Part shown: positions 8,643-24,532 of the stretch, in pieces
Layout of the letters: every line of letters begins with the position of its first letter
Numbering within the stretch: position 1 is the stretch's first letter
Source: Bacteroidota bacterium
Lineage (GTDB): Bacteria; Bacteroidota; Bacteroidia; Palsa-948
Assembly (NCBI GenBank): GCA_016213435.1
Contig: JACRAL010000016.1
Location: 1 to 55,288, forward strand
Length of the DNA stretch: 55,288 nt
Direction: 5' to 3'
The notes under the pieces: model-generated
What the model was told of the DNA's origin: nothing
What the model saw: only the letters and a program-made list of their open reading frames with translations
The model's database searches: none
Program-made: the position numbers and the translations under genes

Positions 8643-8675
8643 GTCCTCCCCAATAGGGAAGATTTAGGTGGGGCG
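8643..8675. repeat. Palindromic repeat at the 3' end of nrnA
   Basis: GTCCTCCCCAATAGGGAAGA continues TTTAGGTGGGGCG. It encodes the last residues (RPT) and supplies the TAA stop of nrnA on the minus strand. Confidence 0.7.
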
Positions 8676-9680
8676 TAGTAGGTGTTCTTTATATTCAGGC
8701 AACAGGTTTACAAAACTCGTAACAACTTCATCCAGCATCGTGTGCGCTTCTCCTCCTGCAGCGTTCAGATGTCCGCCTCCGCTGAAATGCTTTCGTGCAA
8801 ATGTGTTTACATCAAAACTCCCCTTGGAGCGTAAAGAGATTTTTATTTCATCCTGCATTTCAATAAATAATACAGAAAAGCGAATACCCTCCACCGAAAG
8901 CGGATAATTCACCAACCCTTCTGTATCGCCTTTCTGAAAACCAAACTTCTTGAGCTCGGTTGCAGTAAGAGAAATGAAAGCAGTATTAAATTCCTTGAGC
9001 AAGGTCATCTTCTGCAGCGCGTAGCCAAGCAGACGCACACGATTTTCTGTATTGGTATCAAACACATTCACGTATGCCAGATTGTTTTGAGCCCCCGCTT
9101 CAATAAGTTCCGCAGTGATGTGATGCGTGTGGGCGGAAGTGGTGCCGATACGAAAGTTAAGCGTATCCGTCATAATACCTGTATAAAGGCAGTTGGCAAT
9201 CTTTTTATTGATAAGCTTTTTATCTCCCAATAGTGCAATGAAATCAAAAACAAGTTGAGAGGTGGAGCAGGATCTCTTATCACAGAGCATATAATCGGCA
9301 AACTTTTCGGGCTGAAGGTGATGGTCTATCAGAATCTTGGCTGCCTTTGCTTTCTTCACTAATTTCCCCACTTCACCTATTCTCCTGAGCGCATTAAAGT
9401 CAAGACAAAAAATAACATCTGCTTTCTTTATTGCCGCCTCTGCCCTATCCGGATGCTCCGAATGTTCTATTACTTTATCATCGCCCGGAAGCCATTGCAA
9501 AAAAGTGGGATACCCATTTGGAGTAACCACTTTCACGCTATGCTTTTTGCGGATCAGGTAATTATAAAGCCCCAGCGAAGATCCCATGGCATCGCCATCC
9601 GGATTTTTATGGGTTACTATCACAATGCGTTTGCGCGCGGAGAGCAGCTCCTGAACTTCTATGGTTTCCTGATGGGTCAT
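8664..9680 (-). CDS. nrnA: Bifunctional oligoribonuclease / PAP phosphatase NrnA
   Basis: A DHH/DHHA1 phosphoesterase of 338 residues that degrades short oligoribonucleotides and dephosphorylates 3'-phosphoadenosine 5'-phosphate in the cytoplasm. Motifs in order: THKNPDGDAMG (His24, Asp28, Asp30), FCLDFN (Asp94), the eponymous DHH at 119-121, and the DHHA1 loop GGGHLNAAGGEA near residue 305. It is first in the minus-strand run that continues into the FKBP genes, an arrangement also found around gldI in other Bacteroidota. The C-terminal residues and stop are supplied by a palindromic repeat, so the native end may have been a little different. Confidence 0.93.
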   Translation of the reverse strand: MTHQETIEVQELLSARKRIVIVTHKNPDGDAMGSSLGLYNYLIRKKHSVKVVTPNGYPTFLQWLPGDDKVIEHSEHPDRAEAAIKKADVIFCLDFNALRRIGEVGKLVKKAKAAKILIDHHLQPEKFADYMLCDKRSCSTSQLVFDFIALLGDKKLINKKIANCLYTGIMTDTLNFRIGTTSAHTHHITAELIEAGAQNNLAYVNVFDTNTENRVRLLGYALQKMTLLKEFNTAFISLTATELKKFGFQKGDTEGLVNYPLSVEGIRFSVLFIEMQDEIKISLRSKGSFDVNTFARKHFSGGGHLNAAGGEAHTMLDEVVTSFVNLLPEYKEHLLRPT

Positions 9681-9690
9681 TTTTGATGAT

Positions 9691-9759
9691 GCCCTATCCC
9701 GATAGATATCGGGTCCCTAAAGGGACTTCCTATTATGCTCCCCTTTAGGGGTTGGGAGC
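9691..9759. repeat. Two adjacent palindromic repeats upstream of nrnA
   Basis: First ATCCCGATAGATATCGGGT, a near-perfect inverted repeat, then CCCTAAAGGGA, then GCTCCCCTTTAGGGGTTGGG. This composite lies between nrnA and the RCC1 gene. The CCCGATnnnnATCGGG part recurs at 10041-10057, 12411-12418 and 45990-46002. Confidence 0.75.
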
Positions 9760-9862
9760 TTGCAAATATAATAAGATGATGAAAGGGATTTATAATATAT
9801 TTAAATAAAGAATCTAATGTTTCAGTTATTACTAAAACACAGTAAAAGTAACCATTTGAAAT

Positions 9863-11275
9863 TTACTTATTAATAATCAGTTTCCGACTTACCGCTCCCT
9901 GTTCGGTTTTTATAGTGAGGAAATAAATGCCATTGGGCTGAGAGCTCAAATCAAGAAGCCCATCCCCGCCCTTCCCAAAGGGAAGGAATACCATTCTTTT
10001 TCCCATAACTGAATACACTTCTACAGTTTCCTCTCCTTTGGTCCCGATAGCTATCGGGAGGGGTAGGGAGAGGCGGCATATCCCTGTTGTTGGATTTGGA
10101 TAAACCGATATTGCTAAGGGCTCTGTAATTTCATTTACTGCAGTTGCCATCTGACAAAGCCCTGTTACCTGAACAGGCACATTGCTATTGGTTGTGGTTC
10201 CATTGCCAAGTTCACCATCCGAATTAATTCCCCATGCCCACACAGTGCCATCCCCCTTTAGTGCTAGGGAATACTCATATCTTGCTGAAATAGCAACAAT
10301 GCCCGTGAGGGAACTAACCTGAACCGGAACATTGCTGTTGTTATTGGTTCCATCGCCAAGTTGTCCGCGACTATTCCATCCCCATGCCCACACCGTACCG
10401 TCACTCTTCAGTGCAAGAGAATGCAGTTGCCCTGCTGCAATGGCAGTAATACCGGTGAGTGAACTTACAGCAACCGGAACATTACTTTTGGTATTAGTTC
10501 CATTGCCAAGTTCTCCATCTAAATTAACTCCCCAAGCACTCAGCGTACTATCACTCTTCAGCGCAAGGGAATGAGCATATCCTCCTGCAATGGCAGTGAT
10601 GCCGGTAATAGCACTTACCTGCACAGGAACATTGCTGTTGACATACGTTCCATTGCCAAGCTGTCCATTAGAATTATACCCCCAAGTCCACACCGTTCCG
10701 TCACTCTTCAGTGCAAGAGAATGCGCATATCCTCCTCCCGCAATGGCGGTAATACCGGTAATATTACTCACCTGCACCGGAACGCTGCTGTTGGTAACAG
10801 TAGCATTACCAAGTTGACCAAATGCATTCCATCCCCAAGCCCAAACCCTGCCATCATTCTTCAACGCAAGAGAATGATTATTTCCTCCTGCAATGGCGGT
10901 AACACCTGTAATATTACTTACCTGCACCGGAACGCTGCTATTGGTGGTTGTTCCATTGCCAAGTTGACCCACCGCGTTATACCCGCAGGTCCAAACCCTG
11001 CCGTCATTTTTCAGCGCAAGGGTATGACTCCATCCTCCGGCAATGGAAGTGATGCCTGTGAGAGAACTTACAGAAACAGGAACAAAGCTGCTGGATGTAG
11101 ATCCATTGCCAAGTGCGCCATATTGATTGCCTCCCCACGATCGCACAGTGTTATCACTGCAAAGTGCAACAGCATGATATCCTCCTGCTGAAATAGTTTG
11201 AGCATTTGCTCCGAAGGAGCCCATCAGTATAATTCCGCAAACAGCAACAGACAAAACGAGTAGAAGTTTCTTCAT
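9863..11275 (-). CDS. RCC1-repeat beta-propeller protein with T9SS sorting domain
   Basis: A 470-residue exported protein. Residues 1-25 are a signal peptide ending ANAQ. Residues about 28-370 hold seven RCC1-type blades (VWAWGWNxxGQLGNGTxxNSxVPVQVS). Residues about 385-470 are a T9SS type A C-terminal domain (VYPNPTTGICRL, GIYFLTIKTEQGAVSRKLIINK). It should cross the outer membrane by the type IX system and remain on the surface or be released; ligand unknown. Two palindromic repeats interrupt the sorting domain in frame (9956-9990 and 10031-10077), adding [12 protein letters not shown] and LSLPLPIAIGTKGE. Its promoter, signal peptide and tail are nearly identical to those of the YCF48 protein at 13454. 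Confidence 0.88.
   Translation of the reverse strand: MKKLLLVLSVAVCGIILMGSFGANAQTISAGGYHAVALCSDNTVRSWGGNQYGALGNGSTSSSFVPVSVSSLTGITSIAGGWSHTLALKNDGRVWTCGYNAVGQLGNGTTTNSSVPVQVSNITGVTAIAGGNNHSLALKNDGRVWAWGWNAFGQLGNATVTNSSVPVQVSNITGITAIAGGGYAHSLALKSDGTVWTWGYNSNGQLGNGTYVNSNVPVQVSAITGITAIAGGYAHSLALKSDSTLSAWGVNLDGELGNGTNTKSNVPVAVSSLTGITAIAAGQLHSLALKSDGTVWAWGWNSRGQLGDGTNNNSNVPVQVSSLTGIVAISARYEYSLALKGDGTVWAWGINSDGELGNGTTTNSNVPVQVTGLCQMATAVNEITEPLAISVYPNPTTGICRLSLPLPIAIGTKGEETVEVYSVMGKRMVFLPFGKGGDGLLDLSSQPNGIYFLTIKTEQGAVSRKLIINK
9956..9990. repeat. Palindromic repeat inside the RCC1 protein's sorting domain
   Basis: GAAGCCCATCCCCGCCCTTC continues CCAAAGGGAAGGAATA; the stem is CCCTTCCC/GGGAAGG. It is translated in frame on the minus strand. 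Confidence 0.75.
10031..10077. repeat. Second palindromic repeat inside the RCC1 protein's sorting domain
   Basis: CTCTCCTTTGGTCCCGATAG continues CTATCGGGAGGGGTAGGGAG. The perfect inverted repeat CCCGATAGCTATCGGG is the core. It is translated in frame on the minus strand. Confidence 0.75.
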
Positions 11276-11318
11276 AAAGATTGATTTAATATTAACGTTT
11301 CTATATTAAGAGATCGGG

Positions 11319-11327
11319 GCAAATGTA
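11319..11327 (-). promoter_or_regulatory. -7 promoter box (TACATTTGC) of the RCC1 T9SS gene
   Basis: On the minus strand TACATTTGC fits TAnnTTTGC and lies about 44 nt before the ATG at 11275. The whole leader is conserved at the YCF48 gene (15653-15711), which supports a real promoter and 5' UTR. Confidence 0.55.
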
Positions 11328-11379
11328 AAAACATTATGCAACACTCTTCGCCTATACAACACCCGAGTGATGAAATCTT

Positions 11380-11640
11380 TCAGGGCTTCTTCACCTCCAG
11401 CCTTTCCACCTTCCAGCCGCTGCCATCGGCAACTTCTCCGAATCTGTATTTTACATCAGGGAAACGCTTCATAATAGTGCGGCATATTCTCGCTGGTGAG
11501 CGCGAAAGCGTGAATTCTTTTTTGCTGATGAACAACACTTCGCCAATATGCAAACTAATGATTGCTTTGTAAAACTGTGAGGAATTACCTGTGCCTTTTA
11601 TCGGCATTTGTGCCGATTCTTCAGGGGTTATTTTTTTCAT
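11380..11640 (-). CDS. Small hypothetical protein (86 residues)
   Basis: Not recognised. The protein, starting at the ATG at 11640, is basic with a mixed alpha/beta appearance (MKKITPEESAQMPIKGTG... HIGEVLFISKKEF... SPARICRTIMKRF). It has no signal peptide or membrane segment, so it is probably cytoplasmic. The sequence is compositionally normal coding sequence and ends cleanly 104 bp before the RCC1 gene start. Its 5' end abuts a 21-bp minisatellite (11654-11840), which therefore occupies the place where its promoter should be. A nucleic-acid-binding role is possible from the charge but is only a guess. Confidence 0.55.
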   Translation of the reverse strand: MKKITPEESAQMPIKGTGNSSQFYKAIISLHIGEVLFISKKEFTLSRSPARICRTIMKRFPDVKYRFGEVADGSGWKVERLEVKKP

Positions 11641-11653
11641 GATGCGCAAATAT

Positions 11654-11840
11654 ATGCACGTTTGAGCACATTGGATGTACGTTTGAGCATATTATATGTA
11701 CGTTTAAGTACATTAGATGTATGTTTAAGCATCTTGAATACTTGTTTGAGCACATCAGATGTACGTTCGAGCATGTTAAATGTACGTTCAAGCATGTTCA
11801 ATGTATGTTTGAGCATGTTGGATGTACGTTTGAGTAGCAT
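11654..11840. repeat. 21-bp minisatellite, about 9 degenerate copies (locus 1)
   Basis: The unit ATTGGATGTACGTTTGAGCA plus C repeats with exactly 21-base spacing and scattered substitutions. It lies between the start of the 86-residue gene and the 3' end of the 161-residue gene. Because 21 is divisible by three, several frames remain open and give spurious heptad proteins. Aligned in register, the unit matches locus 3 (37900-38130) at 15 of 21 positions. It is not CRISPR: there are no unique spacers. Confidence 0.85.
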
Positions 11841-11884
11841 TTTTGAACAAAAAAATAGCATTTCTGATATTCTGATGTTAATTA

Positions 11885-12370
11885 TTAATTATCAGGAGGC
11901 GTATCGCTATTGTTTGCTATCTGAAACATGCTTGCCAAATCATCCACCACCGCATCTGCTCCGGGCACCTGATTAACGGCTGCACTCTTTGCTGTGTTGT
12001 AAAAGGCGCGTGTCCATGTATATGCTTCGCTGCCTGCCACCTGCTGAGTGTCCTCATAAATTTCTACTATTTGTTTCAACTGCCCGATGAAGTTACCCAC
12101 CTGATCATAAAAAGTTAAATCGTTGGTTGCTTCTGCCACTGTGCCTGCAAAGCCGCTTACAAAGTTGGGGTTGACGGGAGCATGATTTTTTATGGCGCGC
12201 TGCACATAGGGGTAACGCTCGTTGCTGATGTTGGGCAAGGTTCTGCGTTCGGCTTTTGTGAGGTTGAACTGCGCAGGCATGTTAGCCGTGCTTTTAAGCG
12301 CATTAATGGCGGTTTGAATAGCCGTCATCTGCGCGGGGCTGAGGGTGAGGTTGATTTTTGAAAATGGCAT
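11885..12370 (-). CDS. Hypothetical helical protein (161 residues)
   Basis: No known domain recognised. The sequence looks mostly helical. It begins MPFSKINLTLSPAQ, has an Asn/Ser/Thr-rich middle (FNLTKAERRTLPNISNERYPYVQRAI) and ends in an acidic tail (NNSDTPPDN). No signal peptide is visible. It lies between a 21-bp minisatellite on its 3' side and a double palindromic repeat (12389-12487) on its 5' side. The 402-residue protein at 36641 is of similar helical character and also adjoins a 21-bp minisatellite, but clear homology between the two cannot be shown by eye. Confidence 0.6.
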   Translation of the reverse strand: MPFSKINLTLSPAQMTAIQTAINALKSTANMPAQFNLTKAERRTLPNISNERYPYVQRAIKNHAPVNPNFVSGFAGTVAEATNDLTFYDQVGNFIGQLKQIVEIYEDTQQVAGSEAYTWTRAFYNTAKSAAVNQVPGADAVVDDLASMFQIANNSDTPPDN

Positions 12371-12388
12371 AGGGTTTAGGGTTTAGAA

Positions 12389-12487
12389 GAAGCCCCTCCT
12401 ATCCCGATCGCTATCGGGACCTCCCCATTGGGGAGGACTTTCACGCCCTGAAATTCCCTCCATTTGGGAGGGTTGGGGTGGGCTTTT
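12389..12487. repeat. Cluster of palindromic repeats upstream of the 161-residue gene
   Basis: In order: CCTATCCCGATCGCTATCGG, CCTCCCCATTGGGGAGGACT and CCCTCCATTTGGGAGGGTTG, ending GGGTGGGCTTTT. The same CCCGATCGCTATCGG plus CCTCCCC...GGGGAGGACTTTCA pairing recurs inside uvrA at 45979-46070, showing that the elements travel as a composite. Confidence 0.8.
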
Positions 12488-12514
12488 GAGAGGGCTTTTT
12501 TTTTGAATGCTGAG

Positions 12515-13447
12515 TTAATTCTTCTGCAAATATGTTTTACTTAATATCCTTTTCCCTATTTTACAACAAGCCCAAGGATAATAAATGCCAAGTGTAATAA
12601 TGGTTAAAAGCATTTGTCCCCACAGGAGCAGAAAATCATTTAACGGGTCTATATCATAACCAAATCTTTGCTTGCTCTCATTTGATACAGCTATAGTTCG
12701 GTCGGCAAAATATTTGTATAAGCGAAGCATGGCTAAAGGCATATAAATTCCTAGGGTGATAATTGTTAATGCAATTTCAATGACAATTTTCCCGCATGAG
12801 TTCCAGAAATTAGTTTCCCATGATATGTTATACTCTTTATAGTTGACATTTACCATCCATTTATATACAAAATACATATATGGTATCATAATTACCATCA
12901 TAACCAATTGCTGAATAACAATAAAAGAGGGAGCAAGGTGCGTATTGCCGGCAATAAGAAATTTAACCATTACAATTGATAGTATGATTACAGGAAGAAA
13001 GATGGTCAATAATAAAATCACGAACAACTTTCCTCCCTTTCCCTGAAATTTAAAATTCTGTGAATCATAGGATGAATTATCTATAAAAAACCTGTGTATA
13101 TTTCTTGTAAACCAAGCCATATATATACCTAATGTTATTATGCTGAGAAAAAATCCGAGCAACACGGTTCCAATATATTTTCCAAAAGAACCATTAAACA
13201 CAATTGCTTTGTCTTTATAGGCAATGTTTTCGATCATTAATTTTGCTGCGTAAAATGTAAAAACAAATGCTACAATACACAACAGGATCATAAGTGGGAA
13301 AAACAAGGCGGATGGGCTGTTCCCCGGTTGAATATTTCTCATTGTAAAAATCATAAACACATAGGGCACTAAGAAAAGTATTAAAAATAATATCCATAAG
13401 GGTAAAAGTTTCTTCCCTGTTAAATTGAAGTTGAAATAGTTTTTCAT
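12515..13447 (-). CDS. YjgN-family (DUF898) membrane protein
   Basis: An inner-membrane protein of 310 residues with about six or seven transmembrane helices. The DUF898 signature occurs twice: ITLGIYMAWFTRNIHRFF (about residue 100) and ITLGIYMPLAMLRLYKYF (about residue 230), with a third ITLGIYYPWACCKIGK at the C-terminus. Function of the family is unknown. It lies 6 bp after the end of the YCF48 gene, so the two are probably cotranscribed, although no functional tie is evident. Confidence 0.85.
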   Translation of the reverse strand: MKNYFNFNLTGKKLLPLWILFLILFLVPYVFMIFTMRNIQPGNSPSALFFPLMILLCIVAFVFTFYAAKLMIENIAYKDKAIVFNGSFGKYIGTVLLGFFLSIITLGIYMAWFTRNIHRFFIDNSSYDSQNFKFQGKGGKLFVILLLTIFLPVIILSIVMVKFLIAGNTHLAPSFIVIQQLVMMVIMIPYMYFVYKWMVNVNYKEYNISWETNFWNSCGKIVIEIALTIITLGIYMPLAMLRLYKYFADRTIAVSNESKQRFGYDIDPLNDFLLLWGQMLLTIITLGIYYPWACCKIGKRILSKTYLQKN

Positions 13448-13453
13448 GGTGTT

Positions 13454-15652
13454 TTATTTATTAATGATTATTTTTTTGTTTGCTGTGCCTTGTGGGTCTC
13501 CATCCCTTCGGGAATCGGTTTTTATAGTGAGGAAATAAATGCCATTGGGCTGAGAACTTAAATCGATTTCAGATTTATCAGAATTAATTGTGGAGGAATA
13601 CACCATTTCTCCCAACACATTCGCTATTTTAATCTGAGACTTTTCATTATGTATGTTCTTTAATACAAGCGTAAAAGTGCCATTGCTTGGATTTGGAAAT
13701 AATGTAACTGCGTTGTTTTCAAATTCTGATTTTTGACCGGTTACAATTGTTGTATCATACATCATTATTCGCTGGTAATCTCCTACCGCATACACTCTAT
13801 TAGCAGCAGGAACACTCACTGCATGAAATTTTAATTGTTCAGAGTTATAAACTATATCGTTATAATTAGAAAAATTGAAAACACTGCTTATTGCATAAGA
13901 GTCAAGATTTCCACTCGCATCATTTCGATATCCTACGGCATATGCAGCTTTGCCGAGAGCAGCTATTCCCACAAAGTAAGTTGAGTTGGTGTAACCTACG
14001 TAGACAGAACTCCATGTATTACCTCCATTTGTTGTGTAAAAAATCTTGGTATTGCTGGTGCCTTCCACCAAATAACCGGTATCTGCCGAAGTGAAAATAA
14101 TATCCATACAAGATGTGCCGATTTTATTGATGTTTTTCCATGTGGTTCCGCCATCGGTAGTTTTTTCAATAATTCCTTTATCTCCGGCAGCATAGCCTGC
14201 ATTTGCTGTAGGGAAATTAATGGAATAAAGCTTAAATAGAGTGTCGCAAGTTTGTTGAATCCATGTATTGCCGCCATCTGTGGTTTTTAGAATAACACAT
14301 GTATCATTGTTGTTATAGCTCATATCCTTTTTCCCTCCTGAAATATAACCGATTTGTGAATTTACAAAATACACATCTGATAATTCTGTTGTTATTCCGG
14401 ACGATGTTGCCACCCATGTATTTCCTCCATCAATAGTTTTCAAAATTGCACCATTCTTGCCAACTGCAAAACCGGTGGTAATACTTGTAAAATAAACTGC
14501 GTTAAGCAGTGACTTGGAGACATTGGTTTTAATATTCCATATTGTACCGCCATTGGTTGTATGCCATAAAGTGTTATATGTGCCGTACCCATCATAAGCG
14601 TCACTACCATCATTTGAAATAACAAAACCATTATCAGCATCAAAAAAATAGACGGATTTAAAAGTAGCTGCTCCGGACAAAACTCTGTTCCATGTTTTTC
14701 CTGTATCTGCTGTTTTCATCATAAGGTTATATGTAAGATAGTTTGATAAATTTTGTCCATCTCCTACAATGAGCGCTTTCCCTGAGTCTAACATAGCTAC
14801 TCCATATAAATCAACAGTGGTGGTACTGCTCTTTTTGCTAACCCATGTAGTTCCCCCATTTGATGTGGAATAGATTACTCCACCCATTCCAACTACAAAT
14901 CCGTTGTTAGTATCACGAAAAAATACATTATTAAGATCACCCATAGATGGTGTTGCTGTCTCTATCCATGTTGTACCACCATCAGTAGTTTTTTTTATTA
15001 TCGTTTTGCTTAAAGGGTTATACCCTGCCAAATACCCGGTATTTTTGTCAACGAAATAGAATTTTTTTCCACCGACAGTCAAACCCATATTTGTCCATGT
15101 TGCGCCTCCATCCGTTGTTTTAAGAAACTCCGAACCTGCAATAAAACCGGTGCTGGCATCTGTAAAATACACATTGGTATAATTAGCATTGGTTCCGGTT
15201 GATGATGCACTCCACGTATTACCTCCATCCGTTGTTTTTATAATTACTCCGTACCAACCAACAGCCACACCTGTAGTTGCACTGGTAAAAAAAATAGAAG
15301 TTATAGGTTGCACTGTATTATAGTTACATGAAGTCCATGTAGCACCTCCATCCACTGTTTTAGAAATCCTTCCATTGTCTCCACCAACATATCCTACACT
15401 TGAATTGTAAAAATACACTGTATTGAGTGTTCTGTCCGTAACATCCGTTTGAATAGTCCATGTATTGCCACCATCTGTGGTTTTCAGTACAAATCCTTTC
15501 TGTTTGTTGTCGTCTCCTCCGACAGCATATCCGGTAGTGGAGTTAATAAAAGTAACATCTCTAAGATAGTCTCTCATAGGAGATATTTCTTTCCACTGTG
15601 CATGTGCAATACCAAATGTTGCAACAGACAAAATGAGTAGAAGTTTCTTCAT
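13454..15652 (-). CDS. YCF48/BNR-type beta-propeller protein with T9SS sorting domain
   Basis: A 732-residue exported protein. The start at 15652 gives MKKLLLILSVATFGIAHAQ, a clear signal peptide; the longer frame to 15724 lacks one. About twelve repeats of the type TTDGGNTW followed by VYFTxxxTGFAVG form one or two photosystem-assembly-factor-like (YCF48/BNR) propellers. Residues from about 640 are a T9SS tail (LFPNPSNGTFTLVL, GIYFLTIKT). Close to the C-terminus a repeat fragment adds SRRDGDPQGTAN before KKIIINK (13493-13518). The upstream 60 bp, the signal peptide and the tail match those of the RCC1 protein although the propellers are unrelated. Confidence 0.88.
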   Translation of the reverse strand: MKKLLLILSVATFGIAHAQWKEISPMRDYLRDVTFINSTTGYAVGGDDNKQKGFVLKTTDGGNTWTIQTDVTDRTLNTVYFYNSSVGYVGGDNGRISKTVDGGATWTSCNYNTVQPITSIFFTSATTGVAVGWYGVIIKTTDGGNTWSASSTGTNANYTNVYFTDASTGFIAGSEFLKTTDGGATWTNMGLTVGGKKFYFVDKNTGYLAGYNPLSKTIIKKTTDGGTTWIETATPSMGDLNNVFFRDTNNGFVVGMGGVIYSTSNGGTTWVSKKSSTTTVDLYGVAMLDSGKALIVGDGQNLSNYLTYNLMMKTADTGKTWNRVLSGAATFKSVYFFDADNGFVISNDGSDAYDGYGTYNTLWHTTNGGTIWNIKTNVSKSLLNAVYFTSITTGFAVGKNGAILKTIDGGNTWVATSSGITTELSDVYFVNSQIGYISGGKKDMSYNNNDTCVILKTTDGGNTWIQQTCDTLFKLYSINFPTANAGYAAGDKGIIEKTTDGGTTWKNINKIGTSCMDIIFTSADTGYLVEGTSNTKIFYTTNGGNTWSSVYVGYTNSTYFVGIAALGKAAYAVGYRNDASGNLDSYAISSVFNFSNYNDIVYNSEQLKFHAVSVPAANRVYAVGDYQRIMMYDTTIVTGQKSEFENNAVTLFPNPSNGTFTLVLKNIHNEKSQIKIANVLGEMVYSSTINSDKSEIDLSSQPNGIYFLTIKTDSRRDGDPQGTANKKIIINK
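13493..13518. repeat. Palindromic repeat fragment near the C-terminus of the YCF48 protein
   Basis: GGGTCTCCATCCCTTCGGGA carries the stem TCCC/GGGA with a TTC loop; it is translated in frame and splits the otherwise conserved T9SS tail. Confidence 0.55.
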
Positions 15653-15696
15653 AAAGATTGACTTAATATTAACGTTTCTATCATTAAGAAATCGGG

Positions 15697-15705
15697 GCAA
15701 ATGTA
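15697..15705 (-). promoter_or_regulatory. -7 promoter box (TACATTTGC) of the YCF48 T9SS gene
   Basis: It is identical to the box at 11319-11327 and has the same spacing to the ATG. The 60-bp leader between box and start codon differs from the RCC1 leader at only a few positions. Confidence 0.55.
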
Positions 15706-15737
15706 AAAACATTTGACAAGACATGAAGTGCTTTTTT

Positions 15738-15745
15738 TATCTTTG
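15738..15745 (+). promoter_or_regulatory. -7 promoter box (TATCTTTG) of the toxin-antitoxin operon
   Basis: TATCTTTG matches TAnnTTTG and lies about 42 nt before the antitoxin ATG. A hairpin CGAAGGGATTCCTTCGG follows in the leader (15750-15766). It diverges from the YCF48 promoter only about 35 bp away. Confidence 0.5.
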
Positions 15746-15786
15746 TCCCCGAAGGGATTCCTTCGGAATAAATAATTTATAAAACT

Positions 15787-15984
15787 ATGGAAACTCTCGT
15801 TATTAATCTTAAATCAGAAAAAGACAAATCTCTTTTTTATGCGCTGGCTGAACGGCTGCACCTGAAAGCATCCCTACTTACCGAAGAAGATAAAGAGGAC
15901 TACGGCTTGCTCAAAGCAATGCTCAAAGGGAGGACAGGTGAATATGTTGATAAAGAAACTGTTTTGAAAGCGCTTCGCAAATGA
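15787..15984 (+). CDS. Putative type II antitoxin
   Basis: A 65-residue protein beginning METLVINLKSEKDKSLFYALAERLHL, with a beta strand then helices and an acidic middle (LTEEDKEDYG). This is a pattern seen in small antitoxins that accompany RelE/ParE toxins. Its stop overlaps the toxin start as ATGA (15981-15984), the usual translational coupling. It would neutralise the toxin and probably repress its own promoter at 15738. The antitoxin family is not recognised with certainty; the call rests mainly on the partner gene. Confidence 0.7.
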   Translation: METLVINLKSEKDKSLFYALAERLHLKASLLTEEDKEDYGLLKAMLKGRTGEYVDKETVLKALRK

Positions 15985-16247
15985 ATGCTCTTTACGACAA
16001 ACGTTTTTTAAAGGACATCGAAGCGGTGAATGATAAGCATTTGAAACAGCAGGTTGAAAAGATTATTTCGGAAATTGAAAAAACAGAGCAGTTGAACCTG
16101 CTGCATAACCTGAAAAAGATGAAAGGGCATAAATCCGCTTACCGCATACGCATAGGAAATCACCGCCTTGGATTTTTCTTTGAAAATCAGAAGATTATTT
16201 TAACCCGCCTTTTAAACCGAAAAGATATTTACAAATATTTTCCATAA
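15981..16247 (+). CDS. RelE/ParE-superfamily toxin
   Basis: An 88-residue basic protein typical of the RelE/ParE superfamily. The features are KRFLKDIEAVNDKHLKQQVEKII (helical N-terminus), LKKMKGHKSAYRIRIGNHRLGFF (core strands with the conserved YRIRxGxxR pattern) and a C-terminal strand with RLLNRKDIYKYF. RelE members cut mRNA in the ribosome and ParE members poison gyrase; the sequence alone does not decide between them. The conserved Tyr/Arg residues and the length match the mRNA interferase side somewhat better. Confidence 0.82.
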   Translation: MNALYDKRFLKDIEAVNDKHLKQQVEKIISEIEKTEQLNLLHNLKKMKGHKSAYRIRIGNHRLGFFFENQKIILTRLLNRKDIYKYFP

Positions 16248-16303
16248 AGAAAAACATATCCTTGTTTTTATATTCTTTTTCACATAACCATTAACCTAAA
16301 TTT

Positions 16304-16720
16304 ATGACCAACAGAACCTTTACCATGATCAAGCCCGATGGAGTGGCTAACAAAAACACAGGAGCAATTCTGGATGCAATTATTAAAGGCGGCTTTAAGA
16401 TAATCGCCATGAAACTGCTGCATCTTACTCCCGAAAAAGCAGGCGCATTTTACGAAGTGCATAAAGCGCGTCCTTTCTATAATGACCTTGTAAAATACAT
16501 GAGCTCAGGTCCCATCGTTGCTATTATTCTTGAAAAAGAAAATGCCATTGAAGATTTCCGCAAACTGATTGGAGCTACCGACCCTGCAAAAGCTGCACCC
16601 GGCACCATACGCGCCATGTTTGCAAAATCCATTGAGGCAAATGCGGTTCACGGCTCCGACAGCGATGAGAACGCAAAGATTGAAGGGGATTTTTTCTTTT
16701 CGATGATGGAAAGGGTATAA
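16304..16720 (+). CDS. ndk: Nucleoside diphosphate kinase
   Basis: Ndk transfers the gamma phosphate of ATP to nucleoside diphosphates through a phosphohistidine. All landmarks are present in 138 residues: [11 protein letters not shown] at the N-terminus, the Arg/Thr-containing nucleotide-binding region ([17 protein letters not shown]) and the catalytic His116 in NAVHGSDS. Length and sequence are fully typical for Bacteroidota. It stands alone on the plus strand, followed by a 21-bp minisatellite. Confidence 0.97.
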
Positions 16721-16756
16721 ATCAGCAGCCCACATACAAGTTTCTATTCAAAGACT

Positions 16757-17149
16757 ATGGTTTTTGATACCGGGAGCAGGATTTCTGATACCGGGAGTAG
16801 GATTTCTGATGCAGGGAGTAGGATTTCTGATACCGGGAGTAGGATTTCTGATGCAGGGAGTAGGATTTCTGATACCGGGAGTAGGATTTCTGATGCAGGG
16901 AGTAGGATTGTTGATGCAGGGAGTAGGATTTCTGATACAGGGAGTAGAATTTCTGATACAGGGAGTAGGATTTCTGATACAGGGAGTAGGATTCTAGAGA
17001 CAAGAAATAGAACTCCTGATAGCAGGAATAGGATTCTAGAGACAAGAAATAGAACTCCTGATAGCAGGAATAGGATTCTAGAGACAAGAAATAGAACTCC
17101 TGATAGCAGGAATAGGATTGCAGAGACAAACAATAGAAGATTATGCTAA
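16757..17149. repeat. 21-bp minisatellite, about 18 copies in two subfamilies (locus 2)
   Basis: The first eleven units are GATACCGGGAGTAGGATTTC plus T, alternating with a GATGCAGGG variant. The remaining units alternate GAGACAAGAAATAGAACTCC plus T with GATAGCAGGAATAGGATTCT plus A, three times, so a 42-bp dimer has itself been amplified. Several frames stay open (a plus-strand frame of 130 codons and minus-strand frames of over 120), but this follows from the 21-base period. The array lies between ndk and the secreted protein gene at 17250. Confidence 0.9.
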
Positions 17150-20284: not shown

Positions 20285-22378
20285 ATGAAAAAAGTCTCTG
20301 TTTTAATGCTTGCCATCTTTTCGTTGACATCAGCAACCCTTTTTGCACAAACAAATAACAAGGGGTGGTGCTTAGCACATGAGGAACACTTAAGACTCAT
20401 GGCTACCGATCCTCAATATGTCAAAAATCAGCAGGCATTAGAATCCTATACAAGAACTTTTGAAGCTAACTACAAACAACAAAAAAATTCTCAAAACCCA
20501 ATGGCCTCCGCGGTAAAAATAATACCCGTTGTGTTTCACGTAATACATGCCGGAGGCAGCGAAAATATTTCAGATGCGCAGATAAAAGATCAGATCAGAA
20601 TTCTGAATTTAGATTTCAGGCGCCTCAACACGGATACAGGAAACACACCGGCTCCATTTCAATCACTTGCTGCCGATTGCCAGATTGAATTCCGGCTGGC
20701 ACAACTAGACCCTAACGGAAATTGCACTTCAGGAATTGAACGGATTAATTCGGCTCTTACCTTTAATGCACGCAATAACGTAAAACCATTAAGCGTTTGG
20801 CCGCCCAATCAATATTTAAATATATGGGTGGTTGCTTCTATTGATCCTCAAGGCATATCCGGTACTGTATTGGGGTACGCTCAATTTCCAGGAGCACAAG
20901 CAGACCCCAGTACAGACGGAGTTGTATTGCGAAGTAATTATACAGGATCAATTGGAACAGCAGCAGTTGGTGGCGACAAAGGCAGAGCCGCCACTCACGA
21001 AGTGGGGCATTGGTTTAATTTGATCCATATATGGGGAGATGATATCTGCGGAGACGATCAGGTAACCGACACACCTACTCAGAATATACATCAATCCGTT
21101 TGTCCCACCTTTCCTTCCGTTGATGCAGCATGCGGTAATGCTCCTAATGGCGGAATGTTTTCCGATTATATGGATTATACCAATGGCAATTGCATGAATA
21201 TGTTTTCTATAGGACAAAGCGCCCGAATGAATGCCACTCTAACTTCTCCCATCAGCGGAAGAAATAATTTATGGACAGCCTCCAACCTGGCAGCTACGGG
21301 TGTTAACAATACCCCCCAACTATGCACCGCTGATTTTTCTGTGGATCAAAAAGTTGTTTGCTTGGGAACAGCTGTTACATTTACCGATCTGTCGTGGAAT
21401 GCAGCTCCCACTTCATGGCAGTGGGATTTTGATAATGATGGAACAACAGATGATATTACACAGAACCCTGCCTATACTTATACGGCTGCCGGAACATACA
21501 GCGTAAAACTAACGGTGAGCGATGGTGTATCCACAAAATCTGCAACCAAAACATCTTATATTTCAGTTTTAGCTAATACGGCTTCTCTTTCACCGTCCTA
21601 TTACGCAGACTTTGAAAATGCAAGTTTCCCTTACAACGATTGCTATGTTTCAAGCGGAACCGGAGCTCAGTGGACGAGAACCACATCGGCATCTTACTCA
21701 GGCGCTGCTTCTCTGAAACTCAGCAGCTTTTCTTCAACATCTGAATGTGATGTTGATGCGTTTATCACTCCTGCCATTAACATGAGTGCTCTTACAAGCC
21801 CTTATATGTCATTTAAACTCTCCTACGCTCAACGCAGTTCCACTGATAATAATCAATTGGAGGTACTCACCTCTACCAATTGCGGAGTTACCTGGAATCA
21901 GCGCTATTCAATGTCAGGCGCGTTACTTTCCACAGCCGGAATTAAATCTACTCCGTTCACGCCTTCTTCATTAAGCCAGTGGAGGCAGGAAACTGTAAGT
22001 TTTACAAAAGGTTCCAGCATCAGGTTTAAATTTCAATTTACATCAGGCGGTACAGGGAACAATGTCTATATTGACGACATTAACATAGGAAACACAGGCA
22101 TTGCAGAAGAATTTGCAAACGGATTTGATCTTACTGTTTTTCCTAATCCATTCAACGACAATGCAACCATCTCTTTCAACATCCTTGAAAAATACAATAT
22201 ATCCGTTGGTGTGTATGATATTGTTGGCAGAGAGGTTATGCCTGTTTCGGCAAAAGCAGAATTGCATGCCGGCACTTATTCGCTTCCCTTAAACAGAAAC
22301 GCTCTTAGCCCGGGGGTTTATTTTGTTAAACTGAATGCGGATGGCTACTCCGTGATAAAAAAAGTAATTGTTCAATAA
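20285..22378 (+). CDS. M43-type metalloprotease with PKD domain and T9SS sorting domain (copy 1)
   Basis: A 697-residue secreted zinc protease of the pappalysin/cytophagalysin (M43) type. Order: signal peptide (ATLFAQ), propeptide, catalytic domain (about 75-335), PKD domain (about 345-430, WQWDFDNDGTTDD), a beta-sandwich adhesive module (about 435-605, ending NNVYIDDINIG), and a T9SS tail from VFPNPFNDNATISF. The zinc motif is HEVGHWFNLIH near residue 238, with Asn where many M43 enzymes have Gly. The Met-turn is in DYMDYTN. It would be exported by the type IX system and digest proteins outside the cell. The neighbour at 22424 is a tandem paralogue. Confidence 0.9.
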   Translation: MKKVSVLMLAIFSLTSATLFAQTNNKGWCLAHEEHLRLMATDPQYVKNQQALESYTRTFEANYKQQKNSQNPMASAVKIIPVVFHVIHAGGSENISDAQIKDQIRILNLDFRRLNTDTGNTPAPFQSLAADCQIEFRLAQLDPNGNCTSGIERINSALTFNARNNVKPLSVWPPNQYLNIWVVASIDPQGISGTVLGYAQFPGAQADPSTDGVVLRSNYTGSIGTAAVGGDKGRAATHEVGHWFNLIHIWGDDICGDDQVTDTPTQNIHQSVCPTFPSVDAACGNAPNGGMFSDYMDYTNGNCMNMFSIGQSARMNATLTSPISGRNNLWTASNLAATGVNNTPQLCTADFSVDQKVVCLGTAVTFTDLSWNAAPTSWQWDFDNDGTTDDITQNPAYTYTAAGTYSVKLTVSDGVSTKSATKTSYISVLANTASLSPSYYADFENASFPYNDCYVSSGTGAQWTRTTSASYSGAASLKLSSFSSTSECDVDAFITPAINMSALTSPYMSFKLSYAQRSSTDNNQLEVLTSTNCGVTWNQRYSMSGALLSTAGIKSTPFTPSSLSQWRQETVSFTKGSSIRFKFQFTSGGTGNNVYIDDINIGNTGIAEEFANGFDLTVFPNPFNDNATISFNILEKYNISVGVYDIVGREVMPVSAKAELHAGTYSLPLNRNALSPGVYFVKLNADGYSVIKKVIVQ

Positions 22379-22423
22379 ATTCCATTTCATAAGAGAGAAA
22401 AAAATAAGCCATACCGTTTCTAT

Positions 22424-24532
22424 ATGAAAAAAAAAATCCTTTATCTTATTGCCACTATCTTATTTCATATTTCTTTTTCAATGCTATATGCCCAGCAGGT
22501 TCCTGTTCCTGAAGAACCGCGCAAGTACTGCGGAACAGACGAAGCAACGCAGAAACTTTTTGATAAATATCCGGGGCTCCATGCAACCTTTGAACGGCTG
22601 CGGATGGAAAGTCAAAACAATGCCAAGCTAAACTCGGCTTTACAAACACAATCCATTATTTACACCATTCCGGTAGTGGTGCATGTATTGCACAATTACG
22701 GATCTGAAAACATTTCAGATGCACAGATAAAAGATGCCATTGCTATTTTAAACAGAGATTTTCAGAAACAAAATGCCGATACGGCAACTGTGATGCCTGC
22801 GTTTAAAAACAATATCGCAAATATTGGAATTCAGTTCACGCTGGCACAAATAGACCCCAATGGAAATTGCACCAATGGGATTGACCGAATTGCCACCACT
22901 CTTACCTATAAGGCAAATGATACTTCCAAACTAAACGACTGGTCGTCAAACCAATACCTGAATATCTGGACATGTGCGAGTATGGCTAACGTATTATCTG
23001 CAGGATATTCATATTATCCCGGATCTGTTCCTCCTCAATATGATGGCATAATGGTTCTTCACAATTATGTGGGCAGTATAGGAACCAGCAACAGTTCCAA
23101 TTCCCGAACGCTGACACATGAAGTAGGACATTGGCTTGATCTCTGCCACACATGGGCTTGTGTTGGTTCCGCATCCAAAACACCGGGGGTCACCTGCGGT
23201 GATGACGGGGTTACTGATACTCCTGAAACAAAAGGGTGGACTTCCTGTGATACTATTTCTGCAACGGCTGGCGTATGCAACCCGGGTACAGCAGAAAATA
23301 TTGAGAATTACATGGAATATTCGTACTGCACAAAAATGTTTACTGCCGGGCAAAAAAGCAGAATGCTGGGTGCCATAACTTCATCAGTTGCCGGAAGAAA
23401 TAATTTATGGAAAACATCCAACCTAACAGCTACCGGTGTCAATAATCCGGCTCAACTCTGCATCGCTGATTTTTCTGTAAGCCAAAAAGTTGTTTGTGTA
23501 GGAACACCCGTTAAATTTACCGATCTATCTTGGGGTGCAACAAATCCCACTTCATGGCAGTGGGATTTTGACAACAATGGCACTGTGGATTCTACAACGC
23601 AGAATCCCACCTATACCTATACTAATGCCGGAACTTACAGCGTAACATTAACGGCAAGCGCTGGCGTATCCACAAAATCTGCAACCAAAGCATCTTATAT
23701 CTCAGTTTTAGCAAACACAGCTTCTATTCAATCCTTTTATTACGAAGACTTTGAAAACACAGTGTTTCCTTACAGCGATTTTTACCTTACAAGCACGAAC
23801 GAAAACGGAACTCAATGGGCAAGAACTACATCTGCATCATACACAGGCGCTGCTTCCATGAAACTCAATAATTTTTCTCAAACAAGCGCAGATGTTGATG
23901 TGTTTATCACTCCTGCTATTGACTTGAGCTCATTGGCAGGATCCCCTTCCATGACATTCAAACTTGCGCATGCTCAACGCAATTCTGCTGACGCAGATAA
24001 ACTGGTGGTATATACCTCTACCGATTGCGGAGTCACATGGATCTCGCGTTATTCAAAACCAGGCACAGCACTTGCCAATGCCGGAATCAACTCTACTGCT
24101 TTCACGCCTTCTTCATCCAGCCAATGGAGACAGGAAACTGTAAATATCCTGAACGTAGGCGGGCAAGCCGATGTTCGGTTTAAATTCCAGTTCACATCAA
24201 GCGGAGCAGGAAACAACATATACATTGATGACATTAACATAGGAACCACCGGAATTGCTGAAGAATTTGCAGGTGGATTTGACCTTAGCGTTTTTCCCAA
24301 CCCATTCAACGACAATGCAACGATCTCTTTCTATATCCTTAACAAATACAATGTGTCGATTGGCGTATATGATATTGTTGGCAGAGAGGTTATGCCTGTT
24401 TCGGCAAAAGCAGAATTGCATGCCGGCACTTATTCGCTGCCCTTAAACAGAAACGCTCTTAGCCCGGGTGTGTACTTTGTTACATTGAATGTGGATGGCT
24501 ATTCCGTGACTAAGAAAGTGATTGTGCAATAA
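22424..24532 (+). CDS. M43-type metalloprotease with PKD domain and T9SS sorting domain (copy 2)
   Basis: A 702-residue tandem paralogue with the same domain order. The zinc motif is HEVGHWLDLCH near residue 231 (Asp at the position usually Gly), and the Met-turn is NYMEYSY. PKD, beta-sandwich (NNIYIDDINIG) and T9SS tail follow. The two proteases differ considerably in the propeptide and catalytic domain, but the last hundred bases of the sorting domain are almost identical in DNA (22220-22320 against 24370-24475). This suggests gene conversion or strong constraint on the tail. The 45-bp gap between the genes makes cotranscription likely. Confidence 0.9.
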   Translation: MKKKILYLIATILFHISFSMLYAQQVPVPEEPRKYCGTDEATQKLFDKYPGLHATFERLRMESQNNAKLNSALQTQSIIYTIPVVVHVLHNYGSENISDAQIKDAIAILNRDFQKQNADTATVMPAFKNNIANIGIQFTLAQIDPNGNCTNGIDRIATTLTYKANDTSKLNDWSSNQYLNIWTCASMANVLSAGYSYYPGSVPPQYDGIMVLHNYVGSIGTSNSSNSRTLTHEVGHWLDLCHTWACVGSASKTPGVTCGDDGVTDTPETKGWTSCDTISATAGVCNPGTAENIENYMEYSYCTKMFTAGQKSRMLGAITSSVAGRNNLWKTSNLTATGVNNPAQLCIADFSVSQKVVCVGTPVKFTDLSWGATNPTSWQWDFDNNGTVDSTTQNPTYTYTNAGTYSVTLTASAGVSTKSATKASYISVLANTASIQSFYYEDFENTVFPYSDFYLTSTNENGTQWARTTSASYTGAASMKLNNFSQTSADVDVFITPAIDLSSLAGSPSMTFKLAHAQRNSADADKLVVYTSTDCGVTWISRYSKPGTALANAGINSTAFTPSSSSQWRQETVNILNVGGQADVRFKFQFTSSGAGNNIYIDDINIGTTGIAEEFAGGFDLSVFPNPFNDNATISFYILNKYNVSIGVYDIVGREVMPVSAKAELHAGTYSLPLNRNALSPGVYFVTLNVDGYSVTKKVIVQ

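Follow-up and report, generated by a model that had tools for sequence, protein, structure and literature searches.

Two neighbouring genes in a 55,288-nt stretch of DNA from an uncultured Bacteroidota bacterium (positions 1 to 55,288 of contig JACRAL010000016.1, assembly GCA_016213435.1; the window), one carrying an RCC1 propeller and the other a YCF48 propeller, are nearly identical over two short tracts, one near each gene end, and share no other similarity. We interpret the pair as the outcome of short-tract gene conversion and as one case of the copying of gene ends throughout the genus, a reading to which we assign a probability of roughly 0.6. The first-pass annotation had proposed that genes for cargo of the type IX secretion system (T9SS) are assembled by swapping the passenger between conserved ends. 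That idea retains its core, as tail DNA is indeed common to unrelated passengers to a degree that protein conservation and codon usage do not explain, whereas the ends of the window pair look as if they had been copied onto resident genes.

Both genes lie on the same strand about 2.2 kb apart and, judged from their sequence, encode ordinary T9SS cargo, in which a predicted Sec signal peptide precedes a beta-propeller passenger and a sorting tail closes the C terminus (Table 1). The PF18962 sorting domain sits at the very C terminus of both proteins, with 41.4 and 53.0 bits against a curated cut-off of 27, and Sec signal peptides of about 25 residues (RCC1; MKKLLLVLSVAVCGIILMGSFGANA ahead of Q) and 18 residues (YCF48; MKKLLLILSVATFGIAHA ahead of Q) were read by eye from the translations. 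The YCF48 signal peptide starts at the ATG at 15652, whereas the open reading frame (ORF) list begins the gene at 15724; position 15711, which the first-pass annotation took as the end of the region, falls in the leader. The tails end in LIINK and IIINK, and the passengers, which we take from their family descriptions to be beta-propellers, contain neither a protease domain nor a C-terminal -KLIKK. Their proposed lack of relationship was confirmed, as they belong to different Pfam families and a comparison of the two passengers gave no similarity (best BLASTP E 2.8). The window genome (G000) is a draft of 3.70 Mb in 216 contigs from an uncultured Bacteroidia lineage, and a gene flanking the pair has metagenome-assembled Bacteroidia as its nearest named records. 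A profile search aimed at SprA and PorV found both components (SprA_N, 541.6 bits; PorV, 250 bits), and the type IX route is therefore present.

At the 5' end, the two leaders are 95.7% identical over 93 nt (-61 to +32 relative to the ATG; blastn), and the likeness spans about -67 to +32 and stops abruptly on both sides. A repeat finder resolved it into a segment of 61 nt at 97% (11244-11304/15621-15681) and one of 40 nt at 88% (11305-11344/15683-15722), and the longest exact run is 27 nt. The sequence GAGTAGAAGTTTCTTCAT occurs exactly at 11258-11275 and 15635-15652, and TACATTTGCCCCGAT, on the minus strand, at 11313-11327 and 15691-15705; neither is found elsewhere in the window, the chance expectations being 0.00 and 0.02. 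In the whole genome the leader has two strong matches (E 9e-69 and 2.9e-36), the next lying at E 0.24, so that chance is not in question here. A common leader with its box, as described in the first-pass annotation, is thus well founded; of the nearly identical signal-peptide DNA claimed there, the first 11 codons (MKKLLL[V/I]LSVA) are indeed common and the remainder of the signal peptides diverges. Searching the leader against each of six other genomes of the genus returned no clear copy; a weak match in one of them (G005, E 6e-4) was rejected, being merely the start of a 289-aa protein that begins MKKLLL and has no obvious relation. Scans for sigma-70 promoters and terminators gave no excess over shuffles, and an Rfam scan of 9500-16300 gave no match. 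No relative of either leader was found, and the leader could have been copied in either direction.

At the 3' end, the likeness comprises 50 nt (48/50, 96%) of a tail of about 230 nt, with 41 nt as the longest run without a mismatch, and ATAGTGAGGAAATAAATGCC is exact at 9912-9931 and 13524-13543 and nowhere else in the window (chance expectation 0.00). The earlier claim of the same tail DNA thus holds for this patch and fails for the remainder of the tail. Both tails encode the same 16 residues, and codon usage alone would rarely make 46 or more of the 48 bases identical (P about 2e-5). The YCF48 tail has a mosaic structure: over the 48 nt before the tract it matches gene C163_16487 at 34 positions and RCC1 at 15, within the tract it matches RCC1 at 48/50 and C163_16487 at 38/50, and over the 40 nt after the tract it returns to C163_16487 (34/40, against 26/40 to RCC1). 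Twelve consecutive informative sites in the YCF48 tail switch to RCC1 (permutation p 5e-5, with parents picked post hoc). The last 40 coding nucleotides of the RCC1 gene are closer to its paralog C177 (30/40) than to YCF48 (26/40), and the flanks of the tail tract therefore each keep their own lineage, YCF48 resembling C163 on both sides and RCC1 resembling C177 on its 3' side. Closely related tract cores exist elsewhere, C177 matching the tract at 43/50 and C150_3333 at 94% over 35 nt. The breakpoints of the window pair, expected at the module borders in the first-pass annotation, lie inside the modules, at +32 (codon 11) and 40 nt before the RCC1 stop. This position of the breakpoints, together with the affinity of the RCC1 end to C177, suggests that ends were copied onto resident genes rather than a passenger dropped in between them.

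High-identity tracts with abrupt limits between otherwise dissimilar genes are the pattern by which gene conversion is recognised, and they are what the window pair displays. We propose that the likeness of its ends arose when short pieces of DNA were copied between the two genes. Stretches of about 50-100 nt would have been transferred between same-strand neighbours by non-reciprocal homologous recombination, the first tract comprising the promoter box, the 5' untranslated region (UTR) and the first 11 codons, and the second the conserved sorting-tail core. Copying of this second tract probably went from RCC1 to YCF48. Across the genus, tails and less often signal peptides would be copied among genes with unrelated passengers, either as the whole tail or as an inner patch, and a benefit is conceivable, for example the retention of a tag matched to the local secretion machinery.

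Tail likeness between unrelated passengers (BLASTP E > 0.01) recurs throughout the window genome. PF18962 matches above the cut-off were considered, and 129 tails were collected, of which 119 belong to genes with a start and a stop (end comparison), 118 entered a test against a codon-resampled null and 103 have a usable leader. At 100 bits or more, 16 unrelated pairs have alike tail DNA against 3.85 in the null (maximum 7 in 20 resamplings). Alike tails stand behind passengers of different Pfam families, for example a Peptidase_C10 and BACON protein paired with one lacking a Pfam passenger domain (89% over 227 nt), an SBBP with an RCC1 passenger (85% over 256 nt) and a Gly_rich_2 with an SPRY passenger (79%). 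In 13 of 16 strong, in-register pairs the likeness starts within 15 nt of the tail-domain start and in 12 it ends within 15 nt of the stop, with both holding for 10; in these ten pairs the shared tail DNA does run from the module border to the end of the gene, as suggested. Leaders are alike in seven pairs with unrelated passengers against 0.9 expected.

The same pattern was obtained in a sister species (G001), in which 112 tails yielded 110 that were taken, 109 that were parsed and 108 that were used, 93 of them with a leader. Here 30 unrelated pairs reach 100 bits in their tails (null 4.2, maximum 6), 30 have alike signal-peptide or leader DNA (3.1 expected), and eight share both ends; leader and tail likeness co-occur with a permutation p of 0.0006, or 0.012 in a stricter form. 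In one group of genes the common signal-peptide DNA starts at the ATG and stops near +60, where the signal peptide ends, again a module border. Most passengers of this group have no Pfam family, so that 'unrelated' rests on BLASTP there. The alignment of leaders and tails suggested in the first-pass annotation, extended to all parseable sorting-tail genes of both genomes, thus reveals an excess over the codon null, and gradual divergence across whole genes, which had been named as the finding that would speak against recombination, does not fit the pairs with shared ends. A G001 leader pair (C12_219489/C12_220884, -75 to +32) was considered as a second case of the window type and discarded, its upstream part looking like the coding tail of the preceding gene. 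At the same locus (L263, C12:219489-221099), two adjacent sorting-tail genes each apparently stand directly behind another tail, so that the likeness covers the tail, a short spacer and the following signal peptide as a single unit spanning the gene boundary.

Comparison between the two species adds to this picture. Turnover of sorting-tail genes between the species is fast, with only 20 reciprocal-best passenger pairs linking them, though one flanking gene is 94% identical. Tails were examined in 11 of the 20 ortholog pairs (at least 52% passenger identity, where pairs at 52-59% may be paralogs). In five, at least one tail is closer to a gene of its own genome with an unrelated passenger than to its ortholog; in the other six the ortholog tail remains the best match, in two of them marginally. 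The best candidate for conversion in this comparison is g1_C59_59394, whose passenger is 73% identical to its ortholog: the last 69 nt of its tail are 80% identical to the ortholog, and tail nucleotides 1-102 and 81-172 are 85% identical to unrelated genes of its own genome, an inner patch like that of YCF48.

Several results weigh against our interpretation. At E < 1e-3, 59 unrelated pairs in the window genome have alike tail DNA against a null mean of 34 (maximum 40), and since the null alone reaches 34 of the 59, weak tail likeness mostly reflects protein conservation and proves nothing; the weak matches in G001 are likewise largely null-like (253 pairs against 141.5 for 108 genes). The strong pairs are partly non-independent, C116_13004 being paired with seven members of one cluster, and because several pairs share one gene there must be fewer events than pairs. 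In the window genome both ends are shared by the window pair alone, and leader and tail likeness co-occur weakly (permutation p 0.04, or 0.20 when only genes with a tail partner are shuffled). Four tail groups put through a PHI-like recombination test gave no significant signal save for one nominal value (window group, p 0.14 and 0.38; G000 cluster 2, test window 6, 0.032; G001, 0.69 and 0.66). The mosaic test gave just p 0.033 with RCC1 as the recipient and p 0.21 for YCF48 against C163 and C177, and the post hoc choice of parents weakens the p of 5e-5 given above. Finally, the basis is one genome of the window species.

Among the alternatives, the one that survives best is the tandem duplication of a single sorting-tail gene followed by replacement of the passenger of one copy through recombination in the signal peptide and tail, which we consider unlikely. 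It would account for two close, same-strand neighbours whose ends have diverged about equally (about 4%), sharing of whole tails between unrelated passengers is known elsewhere in the genome, and the absence of the RCC1-YCF48 block from another genome of the genus (G004) suggests a recent or unstable insertion. Such a history is at odds with a likeness that stops 40 coding nt before the RCC1 stop, where RCC1 is nearest to C177, with a tail that is unlike ahead of the tract (15/48), and with the repeat finder returning no other residual similarity between the genes. The abrupt limits and the mosaic tail thus fit short-tract conversion better than a passenger swap. Somewhat less likely still, only the leader was recently copied, and the tail likeness goes back to an older common tail type combined with conservation of codons and protein in the DLSSQPNGIYFLTIKT core. 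The related cores in C177 and C150_3333 and the many alike tails generated by the codon null are what this explanation would predict; it has to contend with 41 nt without a mismatch, with an identity that is improbable given the protein (P about 2e-5), and with a YCF48 tract that departs from YCF48's own tail type.

Selection that keeps both ends alike through common regulation and a common secretion route, with no recombination, is very improbable: 25 of 103 sorting-tail genes do have the promoter-like TAnnTTTG box in their upstream 120 nt (6.9 in shuffles), and the last residues of the sorting domain are described as the essential signal in one report (PMC4404884), but just two genes in the genome have the leader, its RNA fold is ordinary (z 0.22), and the identity covers untranslated and synonymous sites and stops abruptly. 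Least credible is an assembly artefact, which 216 contigs, an uncultured lineage whose nearest named records are metagenome-assembled genomes and the tendency of repeats to cause breaks might suggest, since the copies differ at several sites, their exact runs (41 nt in the tail, 27 nt in the leader) are short for read-based joining, and the pattern recurs in the independent G001 assembly.

The site of the pair is variable. Where the window has the pair, flanked by genes at 8667-9680 and 16304-16717, G004 has two other ORFs and neither propeller gene between the two flanking orthologs; in G001 and G003 other sorting-tail genes adjoin the 8667-9680 ortholog, and the content of the 9680-16304 interval differs in each sister genome (compared with loci L235, L237 and L239). 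This variability fits either the arrival of both genes by insertion or their recurrent gain and loss, and it makes the stretch upstream of the gene at 8667-9680 a likely hotspot for the gain and loss of cargo. Tandem repeats of 21 nt form arrays between the genes (11639-11869) and beyond them (16711-17133), the latter reading as a heptad-like repeat within an open frame. Further along the window, at 20285-24532, two tandem sorting-tail genes have tail DNA that is 89% alike and passenger proteins that are 53% alike, consistent with a duplication, perhaps with later homogenisation of the tails.

Palindromic inserts occur at the edge of both tail tracts, which may be coincidence; GC-rich inserts of this kind may mark or promote break sites. 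With one shuffle as the control, GC-rich palindromes, which lie in frame within signal peptides and sorting tails, number 4 against 0 in signal-peptide stretches, 10 against 1 in tails and 13 against 2 in leaders, and passengers have no excess (22 against 26). Further loci are L094, L138 and L173. At L083:4275-4604 (G000 contig C1), a 109-aa RCC1 remnant consists of an N-terminal propeller part that continues in frame into the final 40 residues of a sorting tail, with the palindrome CAATCCGATAGCTATCGGATTG at the junction, which could mark a deletion between palindromes. These elements resemble the in-frame palindromic elements of Rickettsia cited in a paper available to us in part (PMC3733652).

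Table 1 Coordinates of the two propeller genes, their shared tracts and associated palindromes in the window.
Feature	Position	Strand	Evidence or remark
RCC1-propeller gene, signal peptide and PF18962 sorting tail, 470 aa	9863..11275	-	Pfam RCC1 1.3e-88, Por_Secre_tail 1.8e-10
YCF48 (PSII_BNR) propeller gene, signal peptide and PF18962 sorting tail, 732 aa	13454..15652	-	Pfam PSII_BNR 1.4e-39, Por_Secre_tail 4.4e-14
Shared leader tract, RCC1 copy: promoter-like box, 5' UTR, first 11 codons	11244..11335	-	96% to YCF48 leader
Shared leader tract, YCF48 copy	15621..15713	-	Repeat finder, blastn
TAnnTTTG box (TACATTTG), RCC1 leader, -52	11320..11327	-	
TAnnTTTG box (TACATTTG), YCF48 leader, -53	15698..15705	-	
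PF18962 sorting tail, RCC1 gene	9872..10105	-	Profile match
PF18962 sorting tail, YCF48 gene, to profile position 67	13508..13702	-	Profile match
Shared tail tract, RCC1 copy (DLSSQPNGIYFLTIKT codons)	9903..9952	-	48/50 to YCF48 copy
Shared tail tract, YCF48 copy; flanks resemble C163_16487 tail	13515..13564	-	
GC-rich palindrome just 5' (gene sense) of RCC1 tail tract	9970..9986	.	
Palindrome TCCCGATAGCTATCGGGA within RCC1 tail reading frame	10042..10059	.	
21-nt in-frame insert directly 3' (gene sense) of YCF48 tail tract	13494..13514	.	

To our knowledge, how unrelated proteins acquire the same T9SS sorting domain is usually stated rather than traced; here the DNA tracts are visible with their limits and can be tested in each genome against a codon null, with the caution that protein conservation by itself should already produce much weak similarity between tails. 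More broadly, we tentatively entertain the possibility, which we do not favour over its negation, that the sorting tails of the genus, and to a lesser degree its signal peptides and leaders, form one pool of DNA exchanged by ongoing conversion within genomes. If so, tails would undergo concerted evolution within each species, independently of the evolution and turnover of passengers, and new proteins would have a standing route to become surface cargo. Trees of sorting domains would then not track the history of the cargo, and the tail type would instead tell in which genome a cargo has lived.

The cargo itself is ordinary, and both the fusion of proteins to shared T9SS ends and the conversion of gene ends have precedents; the unusual part is the trade of tails among many unrelated passengers. 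A literature search, judged mostly from titles, did not find exchange of sorting-tail DNA between unrelated cargo. Near-identical ends around a divergent middle are likewise reported for the bab adhesin genes of Helicobacter pylori, where, in the part of the paper available, gene conversion between loci includes the 5' region 60-240 bp from the start codon (PMC4552749); the bab middles are variants of one protein family that uses another secretion route, whereas the passenger families here differ. The gingipains and haemagglutinins of Porphyromonas gingivalis are also modular surface proteins in a bacterium with a T9SS, and their domains are rearranged and recombine, but, according to the portion of the report at hand, it is adhesin modules and alleles that vary between strains (PMC5266723), whereas here ends are shared within one genome. 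Closest are the KLIKK proteases of Tannerella forsythia, which are likewise T9SS cargo: their catalytic domains differ, their C-terminal domains are virtually identical, and a 50-bp A/T-rich tract stands ahead of every gene; the authors suggest fusion of proteases to common signal-peptide and C-terminal parts (PMC4404884). As far as the accessible text of that report extends, it concerns six genes in two clusters with one domain type and includes no gene-by-gene analysis of DNA tracts; in the genus studied here many unrelated passengers would trade tails, inner patches included, and the sharing extends to signal-peptide DNA. Should tails indeed be converted within genomes, the process would be general, and the six KLIKK proteases a single visible example of it.

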